A stretch of 64,000 bases of DNA from Sphingobium sp. Lineage in GTDB: Bacteria; Pseudomonadota; Alphaproteobacteria; Sphingomonadales; Sphingomonadaceae. The stretch lies in NCBI GenBank assembly GCA_020446425.1, contig JAGRES010000003.1, forward strand, positions 124,001 to 188,000, read 5' to 3'. Shown here in pieces: positions 17,957-62,407 of the stretch. The notes under the pieces are model-generated. The model saw only the letters and a list, made by a program, of their open reading frames with translations, ran no database searches and had not been told where the DNA came from. The translations under genes and the position numbers were made by a program. Positions within the stretch are counted from its first letter, which is position 1. Each line of letters opens with the position of its first letter.

Positions 17957-17957
17957 A

Positions 17958-40027: not shown

Positions 40028-40038
40028 ATTTTCCTCCC

Positions 40039-40836: not shown

Positions 40837-41510
40837 GCCTGCCCCTCCCATTCTTCATCTTCAAAGCATAGATATTGCCACATGCGCTCGAACAGCATGC
40901 CCGCTTTCACGGCACGCTGTCTGACTTCCTCTACGGTATATTCACGTGGTGCTCCATCGGTCGCCCGCACAGCCAGTTCAAGCCGCGCCGCGTCCTCCAG
41001 AAAATATGTCAGGCCAGCGGCCTCCTCCAACGTCTCGCCCGCCACAACGCATCCATTACCGGACAGAATGATGGCCGCATTATCGCCCATCATCGCCGCG
41101 ACCCTGACCGCCTGTTCATCGTCCCGCACCAGAGCCACGCCGGGCCAAAGCGGCGGTTTTGGCGCGAAATAGGTGCCCAGCCCGTGCAAGGCGCGCGGTG
41201 TTTCACCCATGGCAGAGAGCGCCATGATCGCTGGCGGCTGGACCCGCACCACACCGCCAATTTCTGGCCGGTTGCGATAGACTTCGCGATGAATGCGCAC
41301 CTCCGGCAACGCACCCGCGGGCAGGTCGCCATCCAGAGGCACGATAACGCCAGCCTCCTGCGCCGATACGGTGCCGAGCGGCTGAGCCGGGCTCACCAGA
41401 AAACGCGCTCCATCAAGGCGCGTGCTGACATGCCCATAAGCATGGGCGAGCCCGTGGCGGTGCATGGCGCGCGCCGCGAGCCGGAGTATTTGCGCGGGAT
41501 TGGGCTGCAC
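40833..41510 (-). CDS. Class II aldolase/adducin-family protein lacking zinc histidines
   Basis: A 225-residue protein of the class II aldolase/adducin fold, with MHRHGLAHAYGHVSTRLDGARFLV near residue 17, LPEVRIHREVYRNRPEIGGVV near 68 and IILSGNGCVVAGETLEEAAGLTYFLEDAA near 150. The usual zinc-binding H-x-H after the VV strand reads R-V-Q, and the later L-x-x-H-G histidine reads S-G-N-G, so all three zinc histidines seem replaced while the acidic residue in E-x3-H stays. It is therefore unlikely to work as a standard metal-dependent aldolase. The start is a GTG. It sits between VOC and hydratase genes in the operon. Confidence 0.78.
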   Translation of the reverse strand: MQPNPAQILRLAARAMHRHGLAHAYGHVSTRLDGARFLVSPAQPLGTVSAQEAGVIVPLDGDLPAGALPEVRIHREVYRNRPEIGGVVRVQPPAIMALSAMGETPRALHGLGTYFAPKPPLWPGVALVRDDEQAVRVAAMMGDNAAIILSGNGCVVAGETLEEAAGLTYFLEDAARLELAVRATDGAPREYTVEEVRQRAVKAGMLFERMWQYLCFEDEEWEGQA

Positions 41511-41521
41511 TTGTGCGAACC

Positions 41522-42049
41522 TTAACCCTTATCGCCGGACGTCTCCGGACGCTCGAAATCGCGCGCCATATGGCCCTTGCCTTCCTGGTCGCCACGCTCG
41601 AAGCCCCAGGCATAACCGCCCTTGGGGTTGGACAGGATTTCCCATGCGTTACCGTCCAAGTCCCAGAAATAGAAACAATAGGTGCCATGCTGCACAATGG
41701 GCCGGGTGATCTTCTTGATGCCCCATTTCTCGGCATCACGTTTCACGATCTTGTAGGCCTCATCGACATCGGCGTCGGTTTCGACATCAAGGCCGTTATG
41801 ATACAGAAAATCCATATCGGCCTTTTTGTTGGTCGGACTCTTGACGACGACAATTACCTGATTGCCGCCCATGCGCGCCCAGAAGGACACGTCGGCCATC
41901 TGAACCGTCTCGAACCCCAGAAATTCCTCGAAAAACTTACGGGTCTTCTGGATATCGAGACATTCCAGCGTGGCATGCGAATAAAACTGGGTCTTGAGCG
42001 GGTTAGCGCGCTGAAAGCCTGCAGATTGTGCGTCGGGTGCTGTCGCCAT
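41522..42049 (-). CDS. VOC family protein (glyoxalase/dioxygenase superfamily)
   Basis: A 175-residue protein with one VOC module. Possible metal ligands are the His of YSHATLECLDI near residue 25, the His of FLYHNGLDV near 84 and the Glu of FYFWDLDGNAWEIL near 135, a 2-His-1-Glu arrangement. Single-module VOC proteins include glyoxalases and some ring-cleaving dioxygenases; standard catechol 2,3-dioxygenases are about twice as long. It lies 14 bases after the semialdehyde dehydrogenase and 11 before the aldolase-like gene. It may process a ring-cleavage product or be a second cleavage enzyme. Confidence 0.78.
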   Translation of the reverse strand: MATAPDAQSAGFQRANPLKTQFYSHATLECLDIQKTRKFFEEFLGFETVQMADVSFWARMGGNQVIVVVKSPTNKKADMDFLYHNGLDVETDADVDEAYKIVKRDAEKWGIKKITRPIVQHGTYCFYFWDLDGNAWEILSNPKGGYAWGFERGDQEGKGHMARDFERPETSGDKG

Positions 42050-42063
42050 GATTTCTCTCCTGC

Positions 42064-43569
42064 CTATAGCTTAATGCAGATATTGGTGGGTTCCGAATAG
42101 AAATTTATCGAATGCACGCCGCCTTCGCGGCCGATGCCGGACATTTTGACGCCGCCAAACGCCGTCCGCAAATCGCGCAGGAACCAGCAGTTTACCCAGC
42201 TGATCCCCACCTCCATCGCCTGGCCGACACGATGCGCCCGAGAAAGGTTGGTCGTCCATATGGATGAAGCGAGCCCATAGTCGCTGTCGTTGGCCAAGCG
42301 GACGGCTTCCTCCTCGGTGTCGAAAGGAATGACCGCACAGCACGGACCGAAAATTTCCTCCCGGCAGATACGCGCATCCTGAGACAGGCCTGTCCAGATC
42401 GTGGGCTCGACAAAGAACCCGTTTGCGGCGGCTCCACTGAGTTGCGGCGTGCCGCCCCCGGTTACCACGGTCGCGCCTTCGGCCACCGCCAACGCATAAT
42501 AATCCAGTACCTTGCGGCGATGCTCGTCAGAAATCAGCGGTCCGAAATCCACGCCCTCATCGTTCGGCAAGCCGGGCTTCAACGCTTCGGCTTTTGCTTT
42601 CATGCCCGCGACGAACGCATCGAATACGGGTCGCTCCACATAGATGCGCTCCGGCGCGAGGCAGACCTGGCCTGTATTGAGGAACACCGCTCTCGACAGC
42701 CCGGCGACTGCCGCATCCATGTCCGCATCGGCGAAAACGATCGCCGAATTCTTCCCGCCCAACTCAAAAGACAGCGCCTTCACATAGGGCGCAGCGGTTT
42801 TCATGATGGCGGTACCGGTGCGCGTTTCGCCGGTGAAGGTGAGCGCGCGAACACCGGGATGCGCAACCAGCTTCTCACCCGCTGAGCCGGGCCCGAAGCC
42901 GTGGATCACGTTAAACGCCCCTGCCGGCATCCCAACCTCGTTCATCACTTCACCCAACAGCGTGGTGGTGGACGGCGTTTCCTCCGATGGTTTCACGATC
43001 ACGGCATTGCCGCAGGCCATGGCCGGTGCAACTTTCCATGTCATCAGCAGCAAGGGAAGGTTCCACGGCGAGATGACGCCGACCACGCCCAGCGGCTTAC
43101 GCACCGCATAGTTCAGCGCCTTGCCACCATCCGGCGTATCCATTTCAAATGTTTCGGTCGAAAGGCTGGCAATCACATCGGAAAATATGCGAAAATTGGC
43201 CGCGCCGCGCGGGATATCGAGATGATGGGCAAGGCTGTGCGGCTTACCGGTGTCGGCGATCTCGGCCTCAAGAAACTCATCGAACCGTTCCTCGATCCGG
43301 TCAGCAACACGCATCAGCAATGCGCGCCGCTTGGCAAGCGTCATATTGCCCCACTCACCTTCGACCGCAGCCCGGGCGGCCTTGACGGCTTGATCGACGA
43401 TATCGGCATCGGCCTCATGCGCTATGGCATGAACCTCGCCTGTTGCCGGATTAACAACATCGAACGGCTTGCCGCCCTCGACAAATTTTCCGCCCACGAA
43501 GTTCTGCAATTTTCTGACATGCGTATCCGCAGATGCCGTATCGAGCGGACGCGTATATGTGGTCGCCAT
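42064..43569 (-). CDS. dmpC: 2-hydroxymuconic semialdehyde dehydrogenase
   Basis: A 501-residue aldehyde dehydrogenase most like DmpC/XylG. Blocks include QNFVGGKFVEGGKPFDVVNPATGEV, VISPWNLPLLLMTWKVAPAMACGN, the catalytic Glu in SFELGGKN and the catalytic Cys in NTGQVCLAPERIYV, ending SINFYSEPTNICIKL. It oxidises 2-hydroxymuconic semialdehyde with NAD+ to 4-oxalocrotonate enol. The start at 43569 follows GGAG; a longer frame upstream covers the promoter. A 100-base gap separates it from gntR and holds a predicted operator, so the genes from here to dmpH may have their own promoter. Confidence 0.9.
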   Translation of the reverse strand: MATTYTRPLDTASADTHVRKLQNFVGGKFVEGGKPFDVVNPATGEVHAIAHEADADIVDQAVKAARAAVEGEWGNMTLAKRRALLMRVADRIEERFDEFLEAEIADTGKPHSLAHHLDIPRGAANFRIFSDVIASLSTETFEMDTPDGGKALNYAVRKPLGVVGVISPWNLPLLLMTWKVAPAMACGNAVIVKPSEETPSTTTLLGEVMNEVGMPAGAFNVIHGFGPGSAGEKLVAHPGVRALTFTGETRTGTAIMKTAAPYVKALSFELGGKNSAIVFADADMDAAVAGLSRAVFLNTGQVCLAPERIYVERPVFDAFVAGMKAKAEALKPGLPNDEGVDFGPLISDEHRRKVLDYYALAVAEGATVVTGGGTPQLSGAAANGFFVEPTIWTGLSQDARICREEIFGPCCAVIPFDTEEEAVRLANDSDYGLASSIWTTNLSRAHRVGQAMEVGISWVNCWFLRDLRTAFGGVKMSGIGREGGVHSINFYSEPTNICIKL

Positions 43570-43589
43570 GAACGAATCTCCAATCAAAA

Positions 43590-43607
43590 TAGGTTGTATA
43601 CGTCCTA
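43590..43607. promoter_or_regulatory. Predicted GntR operator before the semialdehyde dehydrogenase
   Basis: TAGGTTGTATACGTCCTA matches the palindrome TARGAYGTATACRTCYTA with one mismatch. It lies 20 bases before the start codon, between gntR and the dehydrogenase gene, and occurs again near the TonB receptor start and twice before the LigB-type gene. Confidence 0.65.
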
Positions 43608-43669
43608 AATAAAAAACGCAAGGTAATCTCTTATATTTTGCTGCCAGTGCAAAACTACTGCGGACGAAC

Positions 43670-44455
43670 CTAAACCGCTTTCGCGCCCTCGATTGCGAAA
43701 CGAAGAGCGGTACGCAACCTGACCGTGTCAAACTCTGGCGCGAGCGCCGCCAGCAGCTCCAGCGCAGTTCTCGCTAGGTGCCGCGCGGCCAGTTCCCCCG
43801 CCAGCGCAGCATTGCGGTCTGAAATTGCGGCAAAAAGCTCCCGGTGCTCCATCTCGCCACGCTGCCACCAGCCCGGCAAGTGCGCGCCCTTATATGCCGA
43901 TTGATAGCGTTCGCTTCGCATCTCCAGCTGGTCAAGTTCGTTCACGATCACCGTCCCGGCCCCGACAGCAATGGCGCGATGCAATTTACGGTGCAGCTGC
44001 TGCCACTCGTGAAAATCGCCATGCGCGCCCGGTCCCTCCAACGCATGAATGATGTTCTCAAGCTCCTGCAGCGTTTCATCGCTGATCTGGCTGGCGGTGA
44101 GCGCGACACCCATCGACTCCATAATGATGCGCTTTACATATAAAGCCTCGATGTCGACCGGATCAAAACCGACAACCCGGCTGCGATAATTGGGCTCGCC
44201 GACCAGCAGTCCGCTTTCCTGCAGCATCCGCATCGCTTCGCGAACTGGTGTCCTGCTTACGTGGAGCGCTTTGGCGATCGCCACCTGCGAAATGATGGTC
44301 CCAGGCTTGAGCTGACCGCTCAATATGTAGGACTGAAGGATATCATATACTTCTATCGCAGTACGGCGGCCTGCGCTGCGGTCGATTGGCTTGAGTATGT
44401 CTGCGAGCGATGACTTCATGCTATTGTCGTTAGGCGGGACGGAGAAACTGGTCAA
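43670..44455 (-). CDS. GntR-family transcriptional regulator (FadR/FCD type)
   Basis: A 261-residue regulator. The winged helix-turn-helix (about residues 30-100) reads YDILQSYILSGQLKPGTIISQVAIAKALHVSRTPVREAMRMLQESGLL, and the C-terminal FCD domain includes LYVKRIIMESMGVALTA and FHEWQQLHRKLHRAIAVG with possible metal-binding His. The start is a TTG at 44455 because GGAGG lies seven bases before it; the next ATG (44419) has no ribosome site. It sits inside the catabolic operon and is the best candidate for binding the TARGAYGTATACRTCYTA palindromes; the effector would be a pathway intermediate. Confidence 0.87.
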   Translation of the reverse strand: MTSFSVPPNDNSMKSSLADILKPIDRSAGRRTAIEVYDILQSYILSGQLKPGTIISQVAIAKALHVSRTPVREAMRMLQESGLLVGEPNYRSRVVGFDPVDIEALYVKRIIMESMGVALTASQISDETLQELENIIHALEGPGAHGDFHEWQQLHRKLHRAIAVGAGTVIVNELDQLEMRSERYQSAYKGAHLPGWWQRGEMEHRELFAAISDRNAALAGELAARHLARTALELLAALAPEFDTVRLRTALRFAIEGAKAV

Positions 44456-44473: not shown

Positions 44474-45385
44474 TCAGACTACCGGCGTGACAAGCATACC
44501 GAGAGATCCGATTTCCATCCGAACCTCATCTCCTGGTTTGAGATATTCTGGTGGTTTGCGCCCATGCCCAACCCCCGCTGCTGTTCCCGTCCCGATCAGG
44601 TCGCCTGGCGACAGAGTCATGATCGTGCTGAGATGGGCAATGATCTCCGCAACGCCGTAAATCATCTGCCCGGTCGTCGATTGCTGTTTGACCTCTCCGT
44701 TTACGGTCAGCATGACCGGCAGGTCCTGCGGATCGGGTATGAATTGGGCGGGCACGAAATAGGGCCCGGTCGGCGCAAAGCCATCATGGCCCTTGTGCAG
44801 CACCCAGTCGATGCCCACGCCCGGCCTGTCGGCGATCCAGTCCCGCGCGGAAAGATCGTTGAAATTGATATATCCAGCCACCTGATCGAGCGCTTCCTCG
44901 ACCGGCACATGTTTGCAGGCCCGCCCGATCACGACTGCCAACTCGGCTTCCCAGTCCATCATCTTGACATGCCGGGGCGCCTCGACGGATTCGCCGGTGG
45001 CGCGCAACGTGTTCCTGACCGGCTTCAGAAAGGCGTATGGATAGGTCGGTGTCATCGGCACAGGCATTTCGGCCACATGGTCGTGATAATTCGCACCAAT
45101 GCAAATCAAGTTTCCGGGGTGGGAAAAAGGCAGCGCGAATGTGGCGTGCGCAGCGTCCATTGCGCTTTCGTCAAACAAATCGGACTTCGCAGCAACGGCT
45201 TCATTGAGGCGCGCCTGCCATGTCGCCCAATCTTCCACCAACGGGCCAAGATCGTGCCAGCAAGGATTATCGTTCGTACCTTCCAGAAGGAGAGGCAGCG
45301 GCACCAGCTTGCCGTTCCGCTCGACAACCGTCAGATTGCCATCCTCGGTCTTGATGACAGCCAATCTGTAAAATGGGTGGGTCAT
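44474..45385 (-). CDS. Fumarylacetoacetate hydrolase family protein
   Basis: A 303-residue FAH-superfamily protein: LICIGANYHDHVAEM near residue 98, YAFLKPVRNTLRATGESVEAP, a metal-binding MMDWEAELAVVIGRACK near 148, GYINFNDLSARDWIADRPG and SPGDLIGTGTAAGVGHGRKPP. It may cleave or hydrate a diketo acid derived from ring opening. The start at 45385 has GGGAGG before it and overlaps the tautomerase stop in an ATGA. It differs clearly from the FAH protein at 14481-15314 and need not share its substrate. Confidence 0.85.
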   Translation of the reverse strand: MTHPFYRLAVIKTEDGNLTVVERNGKLVPLPLLLEGTNDNPCWHDLGPLVEDWATWQARLNEAVAAKSDLFDESAMDAAHATFALPFSHPGNLICIGANYHDHVAEMPVPMTPTYPYAFLKPVRNTLRATGESVEAPRHVKMMDWEAELAVVIGRACKHVPVEEALDQVAGYINFNDLSARDWIADRPGVGIDWVLHKGHDGFAPTGPYFVPAQFIPDPQDLPVMLTVNGEVKQQSTTGQMIYGVAEIIAHLSTIMTLSPGDLIGTGTAAGVGHGRKPPEYLKPGDEVRMEIGSLGMLVTPVV

Positions 45386-45579
45386 GCGCCACCTCCCTGG
45401 TCCGCCTTGCTGACGCCGCCAGTGCCCCAATGCTCCGGCGCGACTTCGTTGATGATGACACGCACCTGACTGGGCTGAACGTCGATCGTACGCACGGCGG
45501 CATCGGTCAGCTCACGGATCAGTGCCCGTTTTTGATCGACCGTCCTGCCGCTCAGAATATTCACATTGATAATCGGCAT
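45382..45579 (-). CDS. dmpI: 4-oxalocrotonate tautomerase
   Basis: A 65-residue tautomerase. The catalytic Pro-1 follows the initiator Met (MPIINVNILSGRT), and arginine residues near 11 and 39 (QVRVIINEV) fit the active site; DQKRALIRELTDAAV is the conserved helix. It isomerises 2-hydroxymuconate to 4-oxalocrotonate between the semialdehyde dehydrogenase and decarboxylase steps. It overlaps the FAH gene (ATGA). Confidence 0.93.
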   Translation of the reverse strand: MPIINVNILSGRTVDQKRALIRELTDAAVRTIDVQPSQVRVIINEVAPEHWGTGGVSKADQGGGA

Positions 45580-45608: not shown

Positions 45609-46139
45609 TCAGACCTTCGCCGCAGCGGCAATATTGTCGGGGCTGAATACCCGCTGCATGCAGTCGACAAGCTGCGGCTCGGTCATGTCGAACAGCGCAT
45701 TATTTCCATCCACCCACCGAAAATCATGCTTGATGAAAGACATCTTCCAATCGCCATTTTCTCTAATGAAATCAGCGTTATACCAGCCATATTGATTATA
45801 GACCGAGCCCCCCATATCGGTCGCTTTCCAATGCCGCGCGGTCATGTACCAGAGGCCGGTCGCAACATCGCCATCCAGGTCGATATGAAAATTGGTATAA
45901 ACATGGTGGCGGCGAACCGGAGACAGGATCAGGTCCGCAAAGCGCGTCCATTCATCCGCGTCGACCAGAACCTTCGGCTGCCCCGTCAGCCGCTCGAAAT
46001 CGACCAGCAGCTTGTCCGTAAAGCAGGACCGATAGCCCGGCCAATCCCCCAGATCGAGCGACCGGCCAAAGCGCAGCATGACCTTCTTGATAGCCTCTTC
46101 GTCCAGCAACCGCCGGAGTTCCGCTTCGACATCCATCAC
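45609..46139 (-). CDS. NTF2-like (SnoaL-type) protein
   Basis: A 176-residue protein of the NTF2/SnoaL superfamily, starting EAELRRLLDEEAIKKVMLRFGRSLDLGDWPGYRSCFTDKLLVDF, then RHHVYTNFHIDLDGDVATGLWYMTARHWKA and WYNADFIRENGDWKMSFIKHDFRWVDG. The start is a GTG at 46139 or an ATG at 46136; either overlaps the stop of the preceding NTF2-like gene. No catalytic residues can be assigned. Three such proteins are encoded in this operon. Confidence 0.78.
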   Translation of the reverse strand: MMDVEAELRRLLDEEAIKKVMLRFGRSLDLGDWPGYRSCFTDKLLVDFERLTGQPKVLVDADEWTRFADLILSPVRRHHVYTNFHIDLDGDVATGLWYMTARHWKATDMGGSVYNQYGWYNADFIRENGDWKMSFIKHDFRWVDGNNALFDMTEPQLVDCMQRVFSPDNIAAAAKV

Positions 46140-46591
46140 AGAAACTCCGGCTCGGGCGCGAGGCCCAGCGCCTTGCGCGCGGACGGGATGTCATCGATCC
46201 AGTGATCCTTGTAGACATGCTCGCCGGTTGACAGGTCGGCGAAAATTGCCGTCTGATCGAGATAGGCGCGCTGTTCGACAAGCAGGCTGCCATTATGCCG
46301 CACCACATCGCAGCATGGAACCAGAACGACATTACCGTCCAGACGTTCATATTCGATCAGCGCCTCGACATAGACGATGTCGCCAGCCTCGCGCACGCGC
46401 CATATATTGTGGCGCAGGCGCCCGATCAGCGTCCAGAAATAGTTCACGACATCGCGCGCATCGTCCTTGCCTACTACCGGTGGGCGCGCTCCGAAGATGA
46501 ACTGATGATCCTCGCTCAGCATATCAATGAAACCATTGATATCCTTGCGGTCAACGGCTGCGAAACGTTCCAGGACCCAACGGTTCTTCAT
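46136..46591 (-). CDS. NTF2-like (SnoaL-type) protein
   Basis: A 151-residue NTF2-like protein: VLERFAAVDRKDINGFIDMLSEDHQFIFGARPPVVGKDDARDVVNYFWTLI, then DIVYVEALIEYERLDGNVVLVPCCDVVRHNG and a final ARKALGLAPEPEFL. It overlaps the P450 stop (ATGA) and the next NTF2-like start. It resembles the copy at 48578-48988 in the YxRLDG strand, which suggests a duplication. The role, perhaps an isomerase or cyclase on the P450 product, is unknown. Confidence 0.78.
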   Translation of the reverse strand: MKNRWVLERFAAVDRKDINGFIDMLSEDHQFIFGARPPVVGKDDARDVVNYFWTLIGRLRHNIWRVREAGDIVYVEALIEYERLDGNVVLVPCCDVVRHNGSLLVEQRAYLDQTAIFADLSTGEHVYKDHWIDDIPSARKALGLAPEPEFL

Positions 46592-47799
46592 CCCAGCTTC
46601 TCCCTTGGTTCGAAACGAACCTTCAATTCCGGAATGAAGGCATAATCGCCTCCACCGAACGCATATTCCGGCGGATCGCCGGCAAGGCGCAGATCGGGGA
46701 TGAGCTCAAGCAGCTCCTCAAGCAGTATCCGAAGCTCCATCCGGGCAAGAGGCGCTCCCGGGCAATTGTGAACACCGAAACCGAAGCTCATATGCCGCAG
46801 GTTTGGCCGGTCGATGTGAAGCTCTGAGGGGGCATCGAAGACATTGGGATCGCGATTGGCGGCGGCCCACCCGACATACACATCCTGTCCCTGCCCGATG
46901 TCGACGCCCTGAACATCCACCTCCTTTGTCGTACGCCGGAAAAAGCCAAAGAAAGGCGGATGAAGGCGCAGAACCTCCTCGATTGCGCGGGGGATTTTTG
47001 CAGAGTCCGCCTTCAACTGATCACGAAGTTCCGGTCGCGAGAAAACCTCGTAGATCAGGCTCGCCATCGCCGATGTCGTGCTGTGATGGCCAGCACCAAG
47101 AAAAGCGGCCAGCAACACCACATAATCATCATCGTCGAGCTTTCGGCCCTCGACCTCGATGTCCGCCAGATAAGTCAGAAAGTCGTCGCGGGGCGCATCC
47201 CGCCGCGCGTGTATCTCACCGACGGTAACTGCGCCGAATTCGGCCTGACGTTTGCCAAATGCCTCCGGGTCGCCCATCGCTGCGAACATGGCAATGGCCG
47301 TGCGCCGCACTTCCATCACAGTGTCGGGCTCGTCTATGCCCATCAGGTGACAGATGGTTTCCGCGGGCACAGGTTCACACAATTCGGCGACGATGTCGCA
47401 TTCTCCGCGCCCGATAAAGGCGGCGATATGGCGCCGGATATCCCCGCGTATCAGAGGATCCATCACTTCCGGCTTCGCACGCCGTATCGCCTCGTCATAG
47501 ATCGCTCGCCATTCCTTGTGCCGTGGCGGATCCATGTCCAGCCCGGGTATGGGCTTTCGCGGCAGCATAGGGCGCAACACCTGGGGTTCTGAAGAGAAAG
47601 TACGATAATCGCTCATGGCGGACCGCACATCCGGCCAATTGAGCAACATGTGGAAGCCGTCATGTTCGTCGCTGTGAGCAACCGGACATTTCGACCGCGC
47701 CGCCTCGAACAGCTCAAGGCTCTCTGCTGGCGTCGCGGTGTAACAGCTCCAACCTTCTGCTTCCGGACATTTGCTTTTCAACGTACTCCGCTTGTTCAT
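46588..47799 (-). CDS. Cytochrome P450
   Basis: A 403-residue soluble bacterial P450 of the class I type. The heme-binding motif is FGFGVHNCPGAPLAR with C346; the K-helix E-x-x-R is E275-V-L-R278; and the I-helix LGAGHHSTTS (234-243) has a His where an acidic residue is usual before the conserved Thr pair. It hydroxylates or demethylates an unknown substrate and needs a ferredoxin and reductase, which are not in this operon; the ferredoxin/FprA pair at 3772-5378 could serve. GAGGAAA precedes the start, and the gene overlaps the following NTF2-like gene by an ATGA. Confidence 0.92.
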   Translation of the reverse strand: MNKRSTLKSKCPEAEGWSCYTATPAESLELFEAARSKCPVAHSDEHDGFHMLLNWPDVRSAMSDYRTFSSEPQVLRPMLPRKPIPGLDMDPPRHKEWRAIYDEAIRRAKPEVMDPLIRGDIRRHIAAFIGRGECDIVAELCEPVPAETICHLMGIDEPDTVMEVRRTAIAMFAAMGDPEAFGKRQAEFGAVTVGEIHARRDAPRDDFLTYLADIEVEGRKLDDDDYVVLLAAFLGAGHHSTTSAMASLIYEVFSRPELRDQLKADSAKIPRAIEEVLRLHPPFFGFFRRTTKEVDVQGVDIGQGQDVYVGWAAANRDPNVFDAPSELHIDRPNLRHMSFGFGVHNCPGAPLARMELRILLEELLELIPDLRLAGDPPEYAFGGGDYAFIPELKVRFEPREKLG

Positions 47800-47809
47800 G
47801 ATTATTTCC

Positions 47810-48577
47810 TCACCACGCTCTCACTCCGCCATCGACCGCGATATCCGCGCCCGTCACATAAGACGCGTCGTCGCTTGCCAAGAAGGCTACAGCCGCAGCC
47901 ACTTCTTCCGGCTGGCCCATTCGATTGATCATCGCGCGGCCAAGCTGGATACGACTCCATTCCGGATCCTCCAGAATGAAGCGCGTCTGGTTCGTCTCAA
48001 TCGTACCGGGCGAAACAGTGTTGGCGCGAACGCCATGTTTGCGCCCTTCCATTGCGAGCTGGCGCGTCATAGCCAGCACCCCGCCCTTGGCCGCCGTATG
48101 CGCCAGGCCCGGCAGCAATTCGATGCCCGCCCAGGCCGAAAGTGACGCCGTGTTGACTATATTGCCCTTGCTTTTCTTCAGCTCAGGCCATGCCGCGCGG
48201 GTCATCAGGAAAACGAGATTCAGCTCTTCATTGATCGTTTTCGACCACATGTCGTCTGTCATGTCCTCGATCCAGGCGAAATAGGCCATCGCGCCGTTAT
48301 TGAAGAGGACATCTACACCGCCGAAGCGTTCGACCGTTGTCGCCACGACCCTGTCGCACTCGGCCTTGTCGGTCAGGTCGGCGGGATGAACAGAAATCAT
48401 CGTACCGCCAGCAGCTTCGACCAGCCGAACGGTCTCCTCCGCACCGGGGGCCGCTATATCGACGCCTACTACGTTCGCACCCTCTTCGGCGAAACGCAGA
48501 CATGCCGCCCGGCCTATGCTGCCGCCCGATCCGGTTATGATGCAGGTTTTTCCACGCAGGCGATCACTGAAAGCCAT
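47810..48577 (-). CDS. SDR family oxidoreductase
   Basis: A 255-residue classical SDR: CIITGSGGSIGRAACLRFA carries the glycine motif, DVLFNNGAMAYFAWIED the NNG block, NTASLSAWAG the catalytic Ser and HTAAKGGVLAM a lysine where the catalytic pair normally reads Y-x3-K. Here the position of tyrosine is His-Thr-Ala-Ala-Lys, so the catalytic tyrosine appears to be replaced by histidine. If real this would alter activity. The start has GGAGG before it and touches the NTF2-like gene's stop. It lies 10 bases before the P450 gene. Confidence 0.87.
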   Translation of the reverse strand: MAFSDRLRGKTCIITGSGGSIGRAACLRFAEEGANVVGVDIAAPGAEETVRLVEAAGGTMISVHPADLTDKAECDRVVATTVERFGGVDVLFNNGAMAYFAWIEDMTDDMWSKTINEELNLVFLMTRAAWPELKKSKGNIVNTASLSAWAGIELLPGLAHTAAKGGVLAMTRQLAMEGRKHGVRANTVSPGTIETNQTRFILEDPEWSRIQLGRAMINRMGQPEEVAAAVAFLASDDASYVTGADIAVDGGVRAW

Positions 48578-48988
48578 TCAATCCTCCGAATATAGCGGGG
48601 CAAGGTCGATATAGATCCATAGGCGGTCGGACCGGCCTTCCGGGGTCAGGCGCAGATGGCTGGCCACGGGCATCGACACTTTTTTGCCGTCCAGCCGGGT
48701 GTAGGTGACGATACTGCCCTGAAAGGCGCAATTGCCCTCAAGCACCAGTTGTTGGCGCTCATGGCTCATGCCCGTGAGCGTAGACCAGAATTGCCTGAAC
48801 GCTTCTTCAGCGCCCTGCCGCCCTATGATCGGCGGCATATTCCCCAGTCGCAGATCAACATCATCAGTGAACCAGTTGAGCAGCTTTGCCAGATCCAGCT
48901 GGTCCGCGTCGCGGAAAAAGGCGGCGGGCCAGTCCTTCTCGCCGATGGCGGGACCGTCGGCCTGCAATGCTGTCGTTGATACACTCAT
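48578..48988 (-). CDS. NTF2-like (SnoaL-type) protein
   Basis: A 136-residue NTF2-like protein: FFRDADQLDLAKLLNWFTDDVDLRLGNMPPIIGRQGAEEAFRQFWSTLTG, then GSIVTYTRLDGKKVSMPVASHLRLTPEGRSDRLWIYIDLAPLY. The start at 48988 has GAAAGGG before it and removes eleven residues of a longer frame. It is followed without a gap by an SDR gene and preceded by 13 bases after the other SDR. Together the SDR/NTF2 pairs look like sequential dehydrogenase and isomerase or dehydratase steps; that is inference. Confidence 0.75.
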   Translation of the reverse strand: MSVSTTALQADGPAIGEKDWPAAFFRDADQLDLAKLLNWFTDDVDLRLGNMPPIIGRQGAEEAFRQFWSTLTGMSHERQQLVLEGNCAFQGSIVTYTRLDGKKVSMPVASHLRLTPEGRSDRLWIYIDLAPLYSED

Positions 48989-49001
48989 TGTTTCGGCCCT
49001 T

Positions 49002-49769
49002 TCAAATAGCCAGATAACCACCGTCGCAGGCGACCGCGGCTCCGTTCATGAATGACGCTGCATCCGACAATAGCCATGCGACCGCCTCGCCAATCTCGTG
49101 CGGCTCTCCAAATCGGCCTATCGGATGGCGGGCGATCAGCTTATCCTTGATCGCCGCGAAGGAGGGTTCTTCCATCAGGCGCTCAATAAGCGGCGTTTTT
49201 ACAATGCCGGGCAGCACCGCATTCACGCGAATGCCGCGCGCGCCATAATCGGCGCCCGCCGCGCGGGTGATGCCGACAACACCGTGCTTGGCGGCGACAT
49301 ATTCGCTTGCGCCCGGAATCGCGACTTGCCCCAGCGAAGAGGCGGTGTTGACGATTGCACCGCCGCCATTCGCCAACATCGTTTTCACCTGATATTTGAT
49401 GCACAGGAAAACAGCCGTCAGGTCGATGCGGATGGCCCGCTCCCATTCCTCAAGCGTCAGTTCATCGAGCGGCTTGTTCTGCTGTTCGACGCCCGCGTTG
49501 TTGAATGCCCCGTCGAGCCGCCCGAAATGGTTGACGGCTTTCGCCACCAGCGCTTCGATCTCGCTTTCCGAGGAAAGATCGGCGGGATGAAATATCGCCT
49601 CACCGCCGCCACTGACAAGGTCGGCGGCGAGTTGCTCGCCGCCTTCCTTTGCAACATCGGTCAGGACGAGCCGCGCACCATGTGCAGACAGCACGCGGCT
49701 CGCCCCGTTTCCGATGCCGCCAGCAGCACCGGTGATAATGATGACCTTATCTTCCAGCAAACGGGACAT
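49002..49769 (-). CDS. SDR family oxidoreductase
   Basis: A 255-residue classical SDR: IIITGAAGGIGNGASRVL, DGAFNNAGVEQ, NTASSLGQVAIPGASEYVAAKHGVVGITRAA with the catalytic Ser and the Y-x3-K pair, and GAAVACDGGYLAI at the end. Unlike its partner at 47810 its catalytic residues are all present. The start at 49769 lies immediately after the TonB receptor stop, so it is the second gene of the long operon. Confidence 0.9.
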   Translation of the reverse strand: MSRLLEDKVIIITGAAGGIGNGASRVLSAHGARLVLTDVAKEGGEQLAADLVSGGGEAIFHPADLSSESEIEALVAKAVNHFGRLDGAFNNAGVEQQNKPLDELTLEEWERAIRIDLTAVFLCIKYQVKTMLANGGGAIVNTASSLGQVAIPGASEYVAAKHGVVGITRAAGADYGARGIRVNAVLPGIVKTPLIERLMEEPSFAAIKDKLIARHPIGRFGEPHEIGEAVAWLLSDAASFMNGAAVACDGGYLAI

Positions 49770-49770
49770 T

Positions 49771-51999
49771 TCAAAAGTTGAAGCCCATGCGCACGCCATA
49801 GGTGCGCGGTTCGTCCATATATGCGGTCGCGGGGCCAGGAATACCGGCCGCCGCCGTAGCAGCGATAACGGCCTTGTCCGTGATATTGCGGCACCAGATT
49901 CCGGCGTTCCATGTACCGCTGTCGGAATACCAAGTTATCGAACCGTTCGCCTTGACGTAAGGAGCCTGACGTGTGCCCGGGTTGTGCACGAAATCGGCGA
50001 ACCACTCGCTTTCATAACGTGCATCGGCTTGCAGGCGCAGATAGCCGCTGTCGAACTGGAAATCATGGTAGACATTGGCGCCGATGGTCCAGTCCGCGGA
50101 ATAGGGACCGGAAATCCCATTATAGCTGATATTTGTCGTGGTATCGACAAAGTCCTTGTTCCGGTTATGCAAATAGCTGACATACGCAGTGATCATATCG
50201 TTCGGCGTCGGTCGGAAACTGATATCCAGCTGATTGCCATAGATTTCGACCTTCTTGGCGTTGAAGATCGTGTTGACCGGCGCGCCAACGTTATAGGCCT
50301 GCATCAACAGGTCCTTGTATATATAATAGAAGACCTCGTTGTTGATCTGCAGCCTGTTGTCCAGCGTGCGGAACTTGATGCCGGCCGTCCATGAGAAGAG
50401 CTTGGCAGGTTTTACGAGATTGTCCTGCGGCAGGTTCAATGAATTGTTGACGGGCGTGCCGGGCGCATATTCGTTGAACGTGCCCGGGCCATAGCCGGTC
50501 TGGTATGTGAAATAGGCCATCGCATTGCTGGCAACGTCATATTCCACGCCCAGCTTGTAATCGAAATGTTTGAAACTCCGTTTGAATGTATATTCCGGGA
50601 TCGGCCCCGTATAGGCGCCCACTGATGCCAGCACGCCTTCAGGCAGAGAGTTGCCTCGCGCCTTTTTGCGGGTGTAGCTGTATCGACCGCCCGCGACGAT
50701 ACGAAACTCCGGCGACACGCTGTATGTTGCCTCGCCAAAGATCGCGGCACCCTGATTGCGAAGGCGCGTGACGCTACTCTGCGGCAAATCGGAGGGCAGG
50801 CCGAAGGCCGCCCCGAGCGGTGTTGTATTGATGAAAATAACGTAGCTGCCGCTGCTGATCGCATGGAACCCGTTTACACCGACCAGCCAATCCAGCTTGT
50901 CGCCGCTGCCTGAGAGGCGGAGCTCGTGGTTGGTCTGGTCATATTTCGACCTGTAAGGACCAGACCGGATCGAACCGAGCCAATAGAAAGTGCGGTTATT
51001 CAGATAGAAATAGGAAGGAATATAGGTGAGCGTCACGTCATCAGCGACACCGATATCCACCTGAGCACCCACGGCATAATTGTCGAATATCTGGTTTTCG
51101 GCTTCCGGGGTGCCCAACAACGAAGATAGCGTTGGCCCGCCCGGGAAAAGCAGAGTGCGGTTTGGCCAGGATGTATCCCACGGATCGTTACCGAGAAAAG
51201 CGCCTTCATCATAGGCACCAGTGTCCGGGTTCGTTCCCTTGTTAACCAGGTTGGCCGGATGACCCCTCTTTTGCGCCGCATAACCCCACAGATATACATT
51301 CACGTCGTCTGCAGGATCATAAACCACACCAAGACGCGCGCCCCAGTTCTTCTTTGAGAATGAACCATCGCTCATCAGCCCATCGTTATATTCGAAATCC
51401 CCGGCGAACCGCATGGCCAGACTGTCACCCAGCGGCACATTCTGCGCGAACGACGCGTGGAAGAAATCGAAATTGCCCGCCTCCAGCAAACCGGTGGTTT
51501 CCCAATTATGCGAGGGTCGCCGGAAATTGACGTTGATCACGCCACCCAGCGCGCTGCGGCCGTAAAGAGTTCCCTGCGGCCCAGGAAGAACCTCGAGGGT
51601 TTCCAGGTCATATAGTCCGACGCTGGCGCCTTCACGCGGAATGAAAGTGCCATTGAAGTTGAAAGCCACAGTGGTCTCGACGTTGGCGAAATCAAGATTG
51701 GAGCCAACGCCGCGCAGGAATACTTGTATCGTATTGCCTTCCTGGTGAAAGCGCGCAGCTGGAACGATCGTCTGCACCTGCGCCAGGTCCTTGATGCCTG
51801 ATTGCTTCAGCGTCTCGTCAGAGAGCGCCGTGATAGCCGCCGCCGTTTTTTGCAGACTGGTGCTGCGCTTTTGCGCGGTCACAACAATGTCGGCAATACC
51901 GCCTGTACCTTCTGCAGATTCCTGGGCCTGCACAGCGACCGGAGCCGCCAGAGCAATGATGCTCAGCGTCGTATACAATGCGCCTGATCTCGATTTCAT
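49771..51999 (-). CDS. TonB-dependent receptor (head of catabolic operon)
   Basis: A 742-residue outer-membrane receptor. The signal peptide is SGALYTTLSIIALAAPVAVQA; the TonB box-like region ADIVVTAQKRSTSLQ and plug (about 45-155) with LAQVQTIVPAARFHQEGNTIQVFLRGVG and VLPGPQGTLYGRSALGGVINV follow; the barrel ends RTYGVRMGFNF. This layout is that of the VVTAQKR receptors of sphingomonads, thought to import aromatic or terpenoid compounds. AAGGAGGGG precedes the start at 51999. Being first in the operon, it presumably imports the pathway substrate. A GntR-type operator and a MarR-type dyad lie upstream. Confidence 0.9.
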   Translation of the reverse strand: MKSRSGALYTTLSIIALAAPVAVQAQESAEGTGGIADIVVTAQKRSTSLQKTAAAITALSDETLKQSGIKDLAQVQTIVPAARFHQEGNTIQVFLRGVGSNLDFANVETTVAFNFNGTFIPREGASVGLYDLETLEVLPGPQGTLYGRSALGGVINVNFRRPSHNWETTGLLEAGNFDFFHASFAQNVPLGDSLAMRFAGDFEYNDGLMSDGSFSKKNWGARLGVVYDPADDVNVYLWGYAAQKRGHPANLVNKGTNPDTGAYDEGAFLGNDPWDTSWPNRTLLFPGGPTLSSLLGTPEAENQIFDNYAVGAQVDIGVADDVTLTYIPSYFYLNNRTFYWLGSIRSGPYRSKYDQTNHELRLSGSGDKLDWLVGVNGFHAISSGSYVIFINTTPLGAAFGLPSDLPQSSVTRLRNQGAAIFGEATYSVSPEFRIVAGGRYSYTRKKARGNSLPEGVLASVGAYTGPIPEYTFKRSFKHFDYKLGVEYDVASNAMAYFTYQTGYGPGTFNEYAPGTPVNNSLNLPQDNLVKPAKLFSWTAGIKFRTLDNRLQINNEVFYYIYKDLLMQAYNVGAPVNTIFNAKKVEIYGNQLDISFRPTPNDMITAYVSYLHNRNKDFVDTTTNISYNGISGPYSADWTIGANVYHDFQFDSGYLRLQADARYESEWFADFVHNPGTRQAPYVKANGSITWYSDSGTWNAGIWCRNITDKAVIAATAAAGIPGPATAYMDEPRTYGVRMGFNF

Positions 52000-52091
52000 G
52001 ATTCCATCCCCTCCTTGGCTAACCACTGACAATTCAGTGCCGCCCGTTATTTCTGTATCCACTTATGCCGCTGGCCCACAGAATTGTCAAT

Positions 52092-52416: not shown

Positions 52417-52878
52417 TCAGGCTTGTTCCAGCCCTGCCAATATCCGCAGGCAACGCAGGAACACGGAACGCAAATCTTCGGGCAAGGGCGCCAGAATTTC
52501 CTCCTGAACCAGACGAACCTTATCCATCTTCTCATCCAGCAAGGCCTCACCCTCAGGCGTGACATGCATTTTCCATGCACGTGAGTCCTCCGGGTCACGC
52601 TCACGCTCCACCCATTTCTTCGCGACCATGCGCCCCAGCATTTCCTTGAGCGTGCTTTTGTCAAAACCGGTCAGTCCGACCAGCTCATTCTGGGATGCCC
52701 CGGGCTTCTGGCTCAGCGCGATGAGCAAAGCGATTTGCTGGCGGGTTACGTCGGAGCCCACAATCTGGGTGAACAGTTCATAGGAACGTTGATGACTGCG
52801 CCGCAACAGATGGCCCGGCGCTTCCATCAGTTGAAACGCTGTATCCTGGCTGGTTTTGGATCGGGATGTGGCCATCAT
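52417..52878 (-). CDS. MarR-family transcriptional regulator
   Basis: A 153-residue winged-helix regulator: QLMEAPGHLLRRSHQRSYELFTQIVG for the dimer helix, VTRQQIALLIALSQKPGASQNELVGLTGFDKSTLKEMLGRMVAKKWVERERDPEDSRAWKMHVTPEGEAL for the DNA-binding part with the D-x-R wing. The start at 52878 is the first of two neighbouring ATG codons. It follows the transhydroxylase genes on the same strand and probably controls them and the TonB receptor operon through the GTGGATACAC element; phenolic compounds are common MarR effectors. Confidence 0.88.
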   Translation of the reverse strand: MMATSRSKTSQDTAFQLMEAPGHLLRRSHQRSYELFTQIVGSDVTRQQIALLIALSQKPGASQNELVGLTGFDKSTLKEMLGRMVAKKWVERERDPEDSRAWKMHVTPEGEALLDEKMDKVRLVQEEILAPLPEDLRSVFLRCLRILAGLEQA

Positions 52879-52988
52879 TCTGCCTGCTGTTTGCGAACAG
52901 GCATTTCTCGGGATGTTCGACCCAAAAATCAAGCGAAGCGTTAGCCGCCCCCTTTCGAGCAGTGGAATCGACAGCTTCTTTCAGGCCG

Positions 52989-53816
52989 TCAGTTCAGTAC
53001 AACCGTCACAACCCGGCTGGTTTCGACCGCACCTTCTATATCGACCTGTCCGGCGCCCTGCCCATCGCGCTTGGCATGCAGCGAATAGCCCGCACTACCA
53101 TTGGCGACCTGATCGAACCGAAAATCGCCGAAAGCATCTGTCTCGGTAGCGGCAATTTCCTTGCCATCACGCAATAGCCGCACATCAGCGCCTTCCACAT
53201 TGCCGCCATCAGCCGTCACGTTGCCACCGATAAATTGCGAGAGCGCCGGGCCCAGATTGCGATAATATACGCGCGGCCCAGTGTTCAGCTCCGGCTTCAG
53301 CACCGCCAGACCTTCTGCCTGGGCCAGCGCGCTCATCTCCGCATCTTCCAGCTTCAGCGCGCGCAGAGCCCGTGTCGGGCACACATGTGCGGCGCGCGGC
53401 TCGGTCCATCCCTGATCAATCAGGTGCGCATCAAATATCCAGTTTTGCGGCAGCTGCTCGGCGTCGTTCCACTTGATCGCGCCATAAGGACAGGCATCGA
53501 CCAGATCGTGACGCCCCTTCCCTTTTTCAGGGTCGATAATGACAATGCCGTCGTCGCGCTTCGATATCGCGTCGCCGCCCACCTTCATGCAGGGCGCGTC
53601 GTCGCAATGATTACACATGCGCGGCACATAATGCACATCGACCATCGCCCCTTCGCCGCGAACATGCCGGTCAACATCCAGCGTGCGCACATCAGGCGCC
53701 CCCGGCCCTGAATATCCGGGGAAGCTGTTTCCGGCAAATTCGTCCTGGGTGGCGACGGCGCAGTTATTGCAGTTCGTGCACGCGGCGACGTCGATCACCA
53801 GATTCCATTTTTTCAT
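52989..53816 (-). CDS. Transhydroxylase-like small subunit (BthL type) with reduced Fe-S sites
   Basis: A 275-residue protein that follows the small subunit of pyrogallol-phloroglucinol transhydroxylase along its whole length: ferredoxin-like part (1-150), YYRNLGPALSQF near 190, and a C-terminal immunoglobulin-like domain with GADVRLLRDGKEIAATETDAFGDF. Cysteines are at about 13, 16, 19, 68, 71, 76, 109 and 146: eight, against twelve in the Pelobacter protein as I recall it. The missing four are those of one cluster, so two remain. The start has GGGGGAGG before it and overlaps the large subunit by about 50 bases; an ATG one codon earlier is possible. Confidence 0.87.
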   Translation of the reverse strand: MKKWNLVIDVAACTNCNNCAVATQDEFAGNSFPGYSGPGAPDVRTLDVDRHVRGEGAMVDVHYVPRMCNHCDDAPCMKVGGDAISKRDDGIVIIDPEKGKGRHDLVDACPYGAIKWNDAEQLPQNWIFDAHLIDQGWTEPRAAHVCPTRALRALKLEDAEMSALAQAEGLAVLKPELNTGPRVYYRNLGPALSQFIGGNVTADGGNVEGADVRLLRDGKEIAATETDAFGDFRFDQVANGSAGYSLHAKRDGQGAGQVDIEGAVETSRVVTVVLN

Positions 53817-56784
53817 CATTCCTCCCCCAGAGACCGGACCATTTCTCGGCCTGCACGAGACAACTATTGGGTGCGATGGAGCTGGTGCCCTTCGCCTGTG
53901 TACGAGATGGCGTCAGCAGGTTCATGCATCCGCCACGATCGACGATATTCCCGTCGGCATCCTCAATAAAATCGAACTCGGCGCACGATTCGAACGTCTT
54001 GAGCGAACCGCGCGCAACCAATGGCGACACATCCACAGCGCAGATCACCGCCGCGCGTTCGTTATACAGCTTTACGAGGTCGCGCTGTGCCAGACCGCGC
54101 TCTCGCGCGTCCTCGCTGTTCATCCGCACGACCCAGTAATCATGACCATCAGCCCGCATTCTGTGATCCTCGATCGCGTTGATCGGGCCGGACTTGCCGT
54201 CTGCCTGCGTGTGAAAGCTGTAGCGCGGATGGGACGAGACGAGCTGCAACGGATAGGCCTTGGCCAAGTCTCCGCTGTGCCGCCCCTCCCATGCCGGGAC
54301 ATAGCGGTTAAGCACCGGGCGTTCCGGATTGTCCGGATCGCCACGCTTCAATGAGTTGGGGAGGAATTCGATCTTGCCGGACTGGGTCTGGAGCCCTTCC
54401 AGAAATCCGGTCTTGTAATCCGAAGGAAGCGGGTGCGGTTCCGGCGTTTCCTTCTTGCGCCCTTCATAGAACCAGCGCATCTCGACAGGATCCCGTGTTT
54501 CAGGAGCCTGAGGCGGCAACACCACATAACCCTTCTTCAGGAACTCGCTCCAGCTGATATAGCTTGGCAGGTCGGATGACTCGAATACCCGTTTGCACCA
54601 GTCGAGTTCATCGCAGCCCTCGGTGAACATCGCGCCGAAACCGAGGCGCGTCAGTATGTCGGCGAATATGCGATAGTCGGATTTGGACTCACCCAGCGGC
54701 TCAATGCACTTGTGCTGCATCACGACCATGCGGTGATTGACCTGGTTCTGGTTGTGGTGAGCAAAGCCCGCGCAGCCGCACACTTCGCTGATATCTGGGC
54801 GTTCCACAACCGTGCAGGCGGGCAGGATGATGTCGGCGAACTGGGTCTCGCCCTCCTGCCAGATTGCCTGGCTGACGACCATATCAATGGACGGGTCACG
54901 ATGCATCTTGATCAGGCGGGAGCTGTCCATCGTCGTACCGAAGGACGAAGCGCCATATTGATAGATCATGTGCGGGCGGGATTGTCCCGGCGAGGGATAA
55001 CTGATTTCTCCGAATTGCTGCTCCATCGCCGAGCCATCCCACGCATAATAGCTGGCGCTGCCTGTCGTCACTACTTCCGAGCTGCGCTCACGCGGGATAC
55101 GCTGGCTGGCCGAGTTCATCGTCACGACATGCGGCATGCGAACATAATTGTTGATGAAGCCCGCATTCTTTGTGACGTCGCCCGATATGCCGCCTTCCGC
55201 ATAGCCCGGAAAATAGGGCAGCAGGTCGAGCGGAACGCCGCATTGCATATTGCCGAAATTCACGCCGGGTTTGCCCCACCCCTGCATCGCCATCAGCAGT
55301 ATCATATTGCGCGCCCATTGCTGGCCGGTGGCGGCGCGGCATGCGCCGCCAAACCCAGTGCCCAGCCCCCCGGCCGACAGATAGGTCTTTTTCGTGCCCC
55401 ACAGCCGCGCAAGGGAAATTACATCCTTCGCTGGAATGCCTGTCTCGACCTCTTGCCACTCCGGCGTTTTGGCGACGCCATCTTCTTCGCCCAAGATATA
55501 GGCTTTCCACTCGTCGAAGCCGGTGGTGCAGCGCTCCACGAAATCCTTGTCATACAGCCCTTCGGTTATCCACACATGCATGATGGCCTGCGCCAGCGCA
55601 GAGTCAGTCGTCGGACGTACCGGCAGCCACTTGCCACCCAGCATCTGTGCCGTGCTGTTAAAATGCGGGTCGATATGTACGAACTGAATGCCCAGTTCTT
55701 TGGCCCACAGCCTGCGCTGGGATCCCTCGCCCCCCGCATAAAGGCCAGACGTCGCCTCCGGGTCGCTCGACCAGAACACGATCATGTCGCATTCCTGCAT
55801 ACAGTCTTCCATCGTGCCATAGGCGCCCGGCAGACCCAGCCGAAGCGAGTTGCCATAATGGTGCATCGCGCCCCAGTACCAGCCTTCCCAGCTGATCGGA
55901 GAGAACATCTGCATCGGCGCACCCAGTATATTGCTGAAGCGCATCAGCGAAGAGAGCCAGTAGCCGACATTGCCCATCTGGTGATGCGCGCCGTGCAAAA
56001 CAGTGATGGAGCCCGGGCCATATGTCTGCTTCTGCCGGGTCACTTCTCCAGCGACGATATCCAGCGCCTCATCCCAACTGATACGCTCATAGCCCGACTT
56101 GCCACGGTTCTGCGGATTGCGTTCGCCATTGGGATCGAAATCCACACGCTTCATCGGATAGAGCAGGCGGCGGTCGGAATAGACCAGAGATTTGGTCGCA
56201 AGTGCATGCACGTTTACCATGGACTGGCGATAGGGCTTGAAGCTTTTGCCGCGTGCCTCGACCGACCAGCTTTCCGGATCGTCTTCGGCCAGGTCGATGG
56301 GGCAAGTACGGACGATTCGTCCGTCCTTCACATAGACGAACAGCGGCCCGCCATTGGTGTTGGTGACGAAACGATGCGTTCCATCAGGCATCTTGGTGCC
56401 CTGTTTCCACATCCCGCTCTGCATCGTGTTAACCAGGCCGGAGAACCAGACGGCAACCGTGTCATCACCGTTCATCTCCACCAGATAATTCTTGATGAAA
56501 TGGATGATATCGCCCTGATCCGCGTCGGGTTTCAGGAACTGCAACGCAACCCCGGCGTCATGAAAAGCGATGTCGACATCGGGCTGGGCGTGAAGGCCGG
56601 CCGAGGTCGAAATAGCGCCATCGCGAAAAATATAATGACGCGCTACACTGTTGTCCTTCAGGCGCACCTGAATAACGCCGCCGCCACTGCGCAGGTGCCG
56701 CTCAAATGCCGGGTTCATGCGACGCGCTACACCCATGATCCGTGGCAGAGCGGCCAGAATGACCTTCAGCTTCGCCTTGCGCAT
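53764..56784 (-). CDS. Pyrogallol hydroxytransferase-like large subunit with N-terminal SCP2-like domain
   Basis: A 1006-residue molybdopterin enzyme. From about residue 140 it matches the transhydroxylase large subunit: GGPLFVYVKDGRIVRTCPID, FDPNGERNPQNRG, a GAHHQMGNVGYW block, SWEGWYWGAMH, FWSSDPEATSGLYAG (with the Ser and Asp of the molybdenum site), and PYFPGYAEGGISGD. As in that family there is no N-terminal Fe-S motif. Residues 20-115 form an extra domain with FRDGAISTSAGLHAQPDVDIAF and VEMNGDDTVAVWF, which fits an SCP2 sterol-carrier domain. The family moves hydroxyl groups between aromatic rings without oxygen; the substrate here is unknown. No signal peptide. GAGGGAAG precedes the start. 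Confidence 0.9.
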   Translation of the reverse strand: MRKAKLKVILAALPRIMGVARRMNPAFERHLRSGGGVIQVRLKDNSVARHYIFRDGAISTSAGLHAQPDVDIAFHDAGVALQFLKPDADQGDIIHFIKNYLVEMNGDDTVAVWFSGLVNTMQSGMWKQGTKMPDGTHRFVTNTNGGPLFVYVKDGRIVRTCPIDLAEDDPESWSVEARGKSFKPYRQSMVNVHALATKSLVYSDRRLLYPMKRVDFDPNGERNPQNRGKSGYERISWDEALDIVAGEVTRQKQTYGPGSITVLHGAHHQMGNVGYWLSSLMRFSNILGAPMQMFSPISWEGWYWGAMHHYGNSLRLGLPGAYGTMEDCMQECDMIVFWSSDPEATSGLYAGGEGSQRRLWAKELGIQFVHIDPHFNSTAQMLGGKWLPVRPTTDSALAQAIMHVWITEGLYDKDFVERCTTGFDEWKAYILGEEDGVAKTPEWQEVETGIPAKDVISLARLWGTKKTYLSAGGLGTGFGGACRAATGQQWARNMILLMAMQGWGKPGVNFGNMQCGVPLDLLPYFPGYAEGGISGDVTKNAGFINNYVRMPHVVTMNSASQRIPRERSSEVVTTGSASYYAWDGSAMEQQFGEISYPSPGQSRPHMIYQYGASSFGTTMDSSRLIKMHRDPSIDMVVSQAIWQEGETQFADIILPACTVVERPDISEVCGCAGFAHHNQNQVNHRMVVMQHKCIEPLGESKSDYRIFADILTRLGFGAMFTEGCDELDWCKRVFESSDLPSYISWSEFLKKGYVVLPPQAPETRDPVEMRWFYEGRKKETPEPHPLPSDYKTGFLEGLQTQSGKIEFLPNSLKRGDPDNPERPVLNRYVPAWEGRHSGDLAKAYPLQLVSSHPRYSFHTQADGKSGPINAIEDHRMRADGHDYWVVRMNSEDARERGLAQRDLVKLYNERAAVICAVDVSPLVARGSLKTFESCAEFDFIEDADGNIVDRGGCMNLLTPSRTQAKGTSSIAPNSCLVQAEKWSGLWGRNDEKMESGDRRRRVHELQ

Positions 56785-56824
56785 ATATCTTCCCTCTCCG
56801 TCGCTTGCCTGAGACACTGCAAAA

Positions 56825-56842
56825 GTGTATCCAATTTGTCAA
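56825..56842 (-). promoter_or_regulatory. Promoter element and MarR-type site before the transhydroxylase genes
   Basis: On the minus strand TTGACA (56842-56837) is followed at once by TTGGATACAC (56834-56825), placing the GTGTATCC-type element between the -35 and -10 positions. A repressor bound there would block transcription. No strong -10 was identified. Confidence 0.45.
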
Positions 56843-62277: not shown

Positions 62278-62373
62278 TTTTTGCTGCGCAACCCCACACA
62301 AATCTGCGCCCTACATATAGTCGCCCCTAATTTCCGAGCAGGCCGGATTGACACCAGCGCCGATAAAGGCATA

Positions 62374-62391: not shown

Positions 62392-62407
62392 TTTAGGAGA
62401 GAGCGTC

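Follow-up and report, generated by a model that had tools for sequence, protein, structure and literature searches.

A gene pair on the minus strand of a Sphingobium sp. contig (JAGRES010000003.1), at positions 52989-56784 of the 64,000-nucleotide stretch analysed here (the window), is predicted from sequence comparison and structural modelling to encode a bis-molybdopterin guanine dinucleotide (bis-MGD) molybdenum enzyme of the family of pyrogallol-phloroglucinol transhydroxylase (TH) and the resorcinol hydroxylase RhL. The pair is probably cytoplasmic and belongs to a subfamily with an N-terminal SCP2-like domain on the large subunit and, in most members seen, the loss of one [4Fe-4S] ligand set from the small subunit. 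The reading preferred here, to which we give an even chance, is that of an SCP2-bearing TH-family enzyme which, with one cluster set lost, carries out redox-neutral hydroxyl chemistry on a hydrophobic phenolic or cyclic substrate. The evidence suggests the aerobic breakdown of hydrophobic ring compounds as its setting.

Searches of the PDB with phmmer returned TH (4v4c_A, E 2.2e-261, 873 bits) as the best match to the large subunit, with residues 149-995 of a 1017-aa open reading frame aligned to residues 6-869; this frame opens at the mechanically chosen GTG, 33 bases upstream of the ATG used in Table 1. DMSO reductase follows as the second-best match with 226 bits, and acetylene hydratase scores 64 bits. 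The small subunit matches 4v4c_B (E 4.3e-63, residues 2-255), and aligned identity to TH amounts to 407/842 (48%) for the large and 102/249 (41%) for the small subunit. An earlier note on this DNA had placed the pair here and described both subunits as TH-like along nearly their full length, which these matches confirm. Pfam profiles AhtL-like_1st (PF21423, 84.9 bits), Molybdopterin and Molydop_binding have been detected in the large subunit and Fer4_11 in the small one, whose residues 197-275 score 28.2 bits against CarboxypepD_reg, under the 32.3-bit cut-off. The modelled large subunit superposes on TH with a TM-score of 0.94 (normalised by target length), and the small subunit model has the same fold as in TH. 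Phylogeny, the check proposed in the earlier note, sides with TH: a branch with 100/100 support divides the TH-like rows, the pair among them, from six further PF00384 proteins that the Sphingobium genome encodes.

About 130 N-terminal residues of the large subunit have no counterpart in TH, and an SCP2 fold has been found for the first ~126 residues, with 16-19% identity to UbiJ-SCP2 chains. Relatives were compared at 83 loci: L013-L015 and the 80 most similar to the window out of at least 573 found. Fractions given here therefore apply to this sample, whose rows are not independent of one another. The Pfam SCP2 profile matches 15/83 members weakly (best E 0.0022), and a profile of the N-terminal domain gave one match among PDB sequences, at chance level.

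The active site of the large subunit departs from that of TH. The TH block reads N172-P-D174-S175-W, where S175 is taken to be the molybdenum ligand, the Sphingobium block reads S-P-I-S-W, and the block has the general form [N/S]-P-[D/I]-S-W-E-G-W. In TH, Asp174, Tyr560 and Arg153 presumably line the site, with a catalytic role assumed for Asp174; in the Sphingobium protein they are replaced by Ile, Phe and Trp, respectively. Ser175, His144 and Tyr404 (TH numbers) are conserved in 86/86 rows. Position 174 holds Asp in 74/86, Gln in 1/86 and Ile in 11/86, so that S-P-I-S was rejected as an oddity of the window alone. Five columns pass the threshold for distinguishing the 11 Ile rows from the remaining 75. 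Within the 11, four of these columns are uniform, and three of the five correspond to TH 143, 172 and 174. For PgtL and RhL, PMC10100899 gives Ser as the coordinating residue and places both in one Ser-coordinating family. The earlier note had taken FWSSDPE for the active-site block; the motif is present (residues 337-343, exact in 49/86 rows), but was rejected as the molybdenum block, as the ligand Ser sits in a different block, which is changed here. Of the molybdenum-site Ser and Asp, whose loss the note counted as refuting its reading, the Ser is kept and the Asp is Ile.

Because the active site is changed, with Asp174 gone, the substrate or chemistry of this copy probably differs from pyrogallol transhydroxylation. 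A true transhydroxylase, rearranging the hydroxyls of a trihydroxybenzene before ring cleavage as in the conversion of pyrogallol to phloroglucinol, would agree with TH being the best solved relative over the whole shared length, with the three invariant residues and with the extradiol-like dioxygenase and FAH genes found beside part of the relatives. The three substitutions nonetheless speak against it, as do the SCP2-like domain, which compounds as small and soluble as trihydroxybenzenes would not obviously require, and a genome that yields no match to the VOC383 query (a search with no positive control). We consider it rather unlikely, and the plain transhydroxylase of the earlier note is not supported, given the Ile at 174 and the lost ligand set of the small subunit.

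The TH small subunit carries 12 Cys in three sets (13/16/19/149, 68/71/76/109 and 23/126/129/145), whose assignment to three [4Fe-4S] clusters is assumed to follow the usual ferredoxin pattern. Small subunits numbered 79, from 78 loci and the window, with none found at L017, L067, L070, L071 and L094. The first set is complete in 74/79 and the second in 78/79, while the third is complete in only 8/79, namely in Deltaproteobacteria (2), Gracilibacter, Moorella, Sporomusa, Acidobacteria, a Burkholderiales metagenome-assembled genome (MAG) and one other bacterium. Trp and Asp occupy 126/129 in 70/79, L034 being truncated there; at the four positions of the third set the Sphingobium subunit has T/W/D/A and its paralogue (L015) T/W/D/V. 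A strict tie between cluster loss and aerobic life was rejected, since Desulfovibrio (L095) and Deltaproteobacteria (L091) rows have lost the set too and the Burkholderiales MAG (L075) retains it.

With one cluster gone, a small subunit serving as a full electron relay appears improbable from its ligands, and this bears on two alternatives involving net electron transfer. An enzyme of the RhL type would hydroxylate a phenol with a hydroxyl taken from water and hand on two electrons, a reaction that requires no transfer partner and would be in keeping with the shared Ser-coordinating family; it is unlikely, as the absence of one of the three sets should interrupt the relay and no electron-acceptor subunit is seen among the annotated neighbours. 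Very unlikely is a reductive dehydroxylase, removing a hydroxyl as the gut catechol dehydroxylases do while lying outside their clade. Bis-MGD enzymes are known to dehydroxylate, but the catechol dehydroxylases group near acetylene hydratase and away from TH (PMC7028382). The large subunit scores 64 bits with acetylene hydratase and 873 with TH, and this, like the incomplete relay, also tells against the alternative.

For the neighbourhoods of the relatives, flank genes were chosen by our own script instead of a gene finder. Within 10 kb, 28/83 loci have a type-I extradiol-like (VOC) gene and 31/83 an FAH hydrolase, so that in part of the relatives, too, a TH-like enzyme stands among genes for oxygen-dependent steps, in support of the earlier note's general idea. 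All 29 VOC genes above 50 bits lie on the TH strand, as do 29 FAH genes, with 4 on the opposite one. Hydrogenophaga, Curvibacter, Ramlibacter, Ideonella and Pelomonas share the order VOC-FAH-TH with a Burkholderiaceae MAG, whereas Pseudomaricurvus alkylphenolicus and one Pseudomonas have TH-VOC-FAH. At 14 loci from Burkholderia, Paraburkholderia, Caballeronia and Trinickia the order is VOC-FAH-acyl-CoA synthetase-OmpW-TH. In P. alkylphenolicus, whose name marks it as a possible laboratory model, the large and small TH genes, VOC and FAH form a compact run (L023 9992-15715). Many of the host genera are aerobes. In 20 hand-chosen genomes, 119 FAH matches in about 144 Mb give an expectation of about 0.02 per 23 kb, compared with 14/20 FAH-positive loci observed in the same genomes, the score limits differing between the two counts. 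The PROSITE extradiol signature, in the form used here, matched 0/30 VOC genes exactly; a related [GS]RH...Y..D......E stretch occurs in 29/30 (all but L065), and one VOC383 protein found a single weak relative in the PDB. Because of the unmatched signature and this single relative, the genes are termed extradiol-like and no further. Near the window's organism, TH-like genes occur in 3/61 relatives and 9/385 genomes of the class, and a Xenophilus protein used as query found 1/398 genomes of the phylum (own genome counted in each case).

Eight of the 11 Ile rows come from Burkholderiaceae, and the others are the window, Xenophilus azovorans and a Rhodospirillaceae MAG (73% identical). A hand-picked set of 33 of the 86 rows included seven Ile rows; in its tree, with TH positions 170-177 removed, these group at 81/80 and in 84% of bootstrap trees. 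The Burkholderiaceae loci carry a MarR gene (8/8), a homologue of 4,5-dihydroxyphthalate decarboxylase (7/8; PDB 9jp7, E 4.5e-133), a weakly cupin-like protein (6/8) and a Gfo/Idh/MocA gene (6/8); the contig of L048 is only 7.2 kb long. The name bicupin was dropped for the 357-aa cupin-like neighbour in six loci, as Cupin_2 scores 18.5 bits against a cut-off of 27.2. A VOC383 neighbourhood common to the clade was also rejected, none of its loci being among the 28 VOC-positive ones. Pfam assigns the window's regulator and its counterparts at the eight Burkholderiaceae loci to MarR, but a common MarR did not hold up: a search with the window's protein at E 1e-6 recovers only L054, one of the eight, and L042. 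The Xenophilus locus and the window's surroundings have in common two SDRs and, with scores of 48, 94 and 124 bits respectively, a SnoaL protein, one resembling pirin and a 196-aa protein whose sequence reads by eye as isochorismatase-like. The small subunit gene of the Xenophilus pair (L034 12856-13476) appears cut short or frameshifted near its middle, and inspection by eye of the three printed forward frames did not reveal the C-terminal half.

A paralogous TH-like pair on the window's contig (C33:66166-69063; L009 8151-11108, minus strand) has retained N-P-D-S. It is followed by a 223-aa VOC gene and, farther on, a thiolase, and in a same-genus genome (L013) a TH-like pair is likewise followed by a homologous VOC gene. 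Were this second copy to do the work, the pair studied here might be a degenerating, inactive paralogue, as the loss of both the Asp and a cluster set could indicate. Such decay is most unlikely, considering that Ile at 174 is common to 11 rows from several bacterial families, that both subunits are full length with Ser175, His144 and Tyr404 kept, and that the other copy (L015) is without the cluster set too.

A redox-neutral hydroxyl change fits best, because one cluster is gone and a full relay is improbable. The SCP2-like domain would take up the hydrophobic portion of its substrate, a phenolic or a hydroxylated cyclic compound, in the manner accepted for UbiJ and ubiquinone intermediates, and would present the ring to molybdenum. 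With the relay cut, electrons would need neither to leave nor to enter, and the reaction could be a hydroxyl shift, a transfer, or a removal and addition, which may ready the compound for oxygen-dependent steps. Several points weigh against this reading. TH has all three cluster sets despite its redox-neutral reaction, and therefore the state of the relay need not reveal the kind of reaction; the two remaining clusters could also still pass electrons. The Pfam SCP2 profile does not match the window's own N-terminal domain. Within 10 kb, no VOC gene was found at 55/83 loci and no FAH gene at 52/83, and at more than half neither was seen; searches of the window's genome with the decarboxylase, cupin-like and VOC383 queries came back empty, which in the absence of a positive control says little. 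TH-like genes are rare around the window's organism, with 2/397 sampled genomes of the family, own included, and in a quick 86-row tree, again with TH 170-177 removed, the Ile rows group at only 60% by the SH-like approximate likelihood ratio test (SH-aLRT).

The coordinates of the pair and its surroundings are collected in Table 1.

Table 1. Features of the gene pair and its neighbourhood in the window (aa, amino acids)
Feature	Position	Strand	Remarks
Large subunit (TH-like bis-MGD molybdoenzyme, SCP2-like domain at the N-terminus)	53764..56784	-	1006 aa from ATG
SCP2-like domain of large subunit	56407..56781	-	about residues 2-126; assigned by fold
Active-site block S-P-I-S-W	55888..55902	-	residues 295-299; Ile at the place of TH Asp174, Mo-ligand Ser unchanged
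Small subunit, ferredoxin-like, C-terminal Ig-like domain	52989..53819	-	276 aa
ACACT-N5-AGTGT inverted repeat	56814..56828	.	upstream of large subunit; possible MarR operator
MarR-type regulator	52417..52932	-	56 bases from small subunit
TonB-dependent receptor	49771..52062	-	
SDR, SnoaL_2, SDR, P450, SnoaL_2	46136..49799	-	P450 at 46588-47799
SnoaL_4 protein	45609..46139	-	
FAH-family hydrolase	44474..45430	-	related to FAH genes near TH-like genes elsewhere
GntR regulator, aldehyde dehydrogenase, 175-aa VOC protein, two FAA-type genes	39266..44455	-	
LigB-like gene	62348-63502	+	5.5 kb away

Downstream of the pair, the same-strand order is MarR, TonB receptor, SDR, SnoaL, SDR, P450, two SnoaL genes and FAH, and the run goes on with GntR, aldehyde dehydrogenase, VOC and two FAA-type genes. 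The inverted repeat is a possible candidate for a MarR operator. At 15978-18758 lies an HMGL-DmpG, acetaldehyde dehydrogenase and FAA-hydratase trio, which we take to be a lower meta-cleavage set. The nearest solved relatives of the P450 are CYP125 ancestor constructs (160 bits); because 15 P450s score within a 17-bit range, the match offers no more than a hint at sterol- or terpenoid-like substrates. The VOC protein (41522-42049) was rejected as a ring-cleaving dioxygenase, as the second metal His is missing by reading alone.

The earlier note had set the pair between the P450 and a LigB-type extradiol gene. Both are present, but the LigB-like gene lies beyond three genes, coding for an MBL-fold protein, a TonB receptor and an NMT1-like protein. 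In a weak local alignment its product has D-Q-Y where dihydroxyphenylpropionate dioxygenase has D-H-Y, and because Gln replaces the His presumed to be an iron ligand, activity as a dioxygenase is doubtful. The gene is the sole PF02900 match in the genome, and no homologue was found at E 1e-8 among the script-picked genes around the 83 relatives. It is thus a weak pointer to ring cleavage. The divergent MBL-fold protein (56896-57918, plus strand) matches NCBIfam GntH at 211 bits (cut-off 333), followed by ribonuclease Z models. Elsewhere in the window are two neighbouring DUF34/NIF3 proteins (9018-10933, minus strand) and a further molybdopterin oxidoreductase of 711 aa (5369-7504, plus strand), which groups with one of the same genome at C8:247440-248579 and adjoins a 446-aa protein (4038-5378) with a flavoprotein-like start by eye.

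Aerobes hydroxylate phenols with oxygenases, and molybdenum ring chemistry is known mainly from anaerobes. In Burkholderiales, in a Pseudomonas and in Pseudomaricurvus, a TH-like enzyme recurs beside an extradiol-like dioxygenase and an FAH hydrolase. Together with the fused lipid-carrier domain and the missing cluster, this points to a mixed route, one testable in culturable soil bacteria. More tentatively, and with less than an even chance, aerobic Pseudomonadota may possess a class of SCP2-fused transhydroxylases with a cut relay, which would move a hydroxyl on hydrophobic phenols with neither oxygen nor net electrons and leave a ring cleavable by a co-encoded dioxygenase; in the S-P-I-S subclade, further Asp-independent chemistry might act on other substrates. 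This subclade would reveal how far the transhydroxylase mechanism depends on the Asp. No account of an SCP2-fused TH-like class in aerobes was found in the literature searched, in which subscription journals are mostly uncovered.

Among known systems, TH of Pelobacter acidigallici (PDB 4v4c) resembles the pair in its two subunits (48% and 41% identity), fold, Ser175, His144 and Tyr404, and in the C-terminal domain of the small subunit. The Sphingobium pair differs by the added SCP2-like domain, the Asp174/Ile, Tyr560/Phe and Arg153/Trp replacements, one lost [4Fe-4S] set and a gene neighbourhood that is oxygen-dependent. Resorcinol hydroxylase RhLS of Azoarcus anaerobius is of the same Ser-coordinating family according to PMC10100899, and differs in being anaerobic and in its net oxidation. 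The gut catechol dehydroxylases Dadh and Hcdh are also bis-MGD enzymes acting on phenols, but of another clade, near acetylene hydratase (PMC7028382). UbiJ and the SCP2 lipid-binding proteins share the fold of the first ~126 residues of the large subunit, with the difference that here, at 16-19% identity, SCP2 is fused to a molybdoenzyme.

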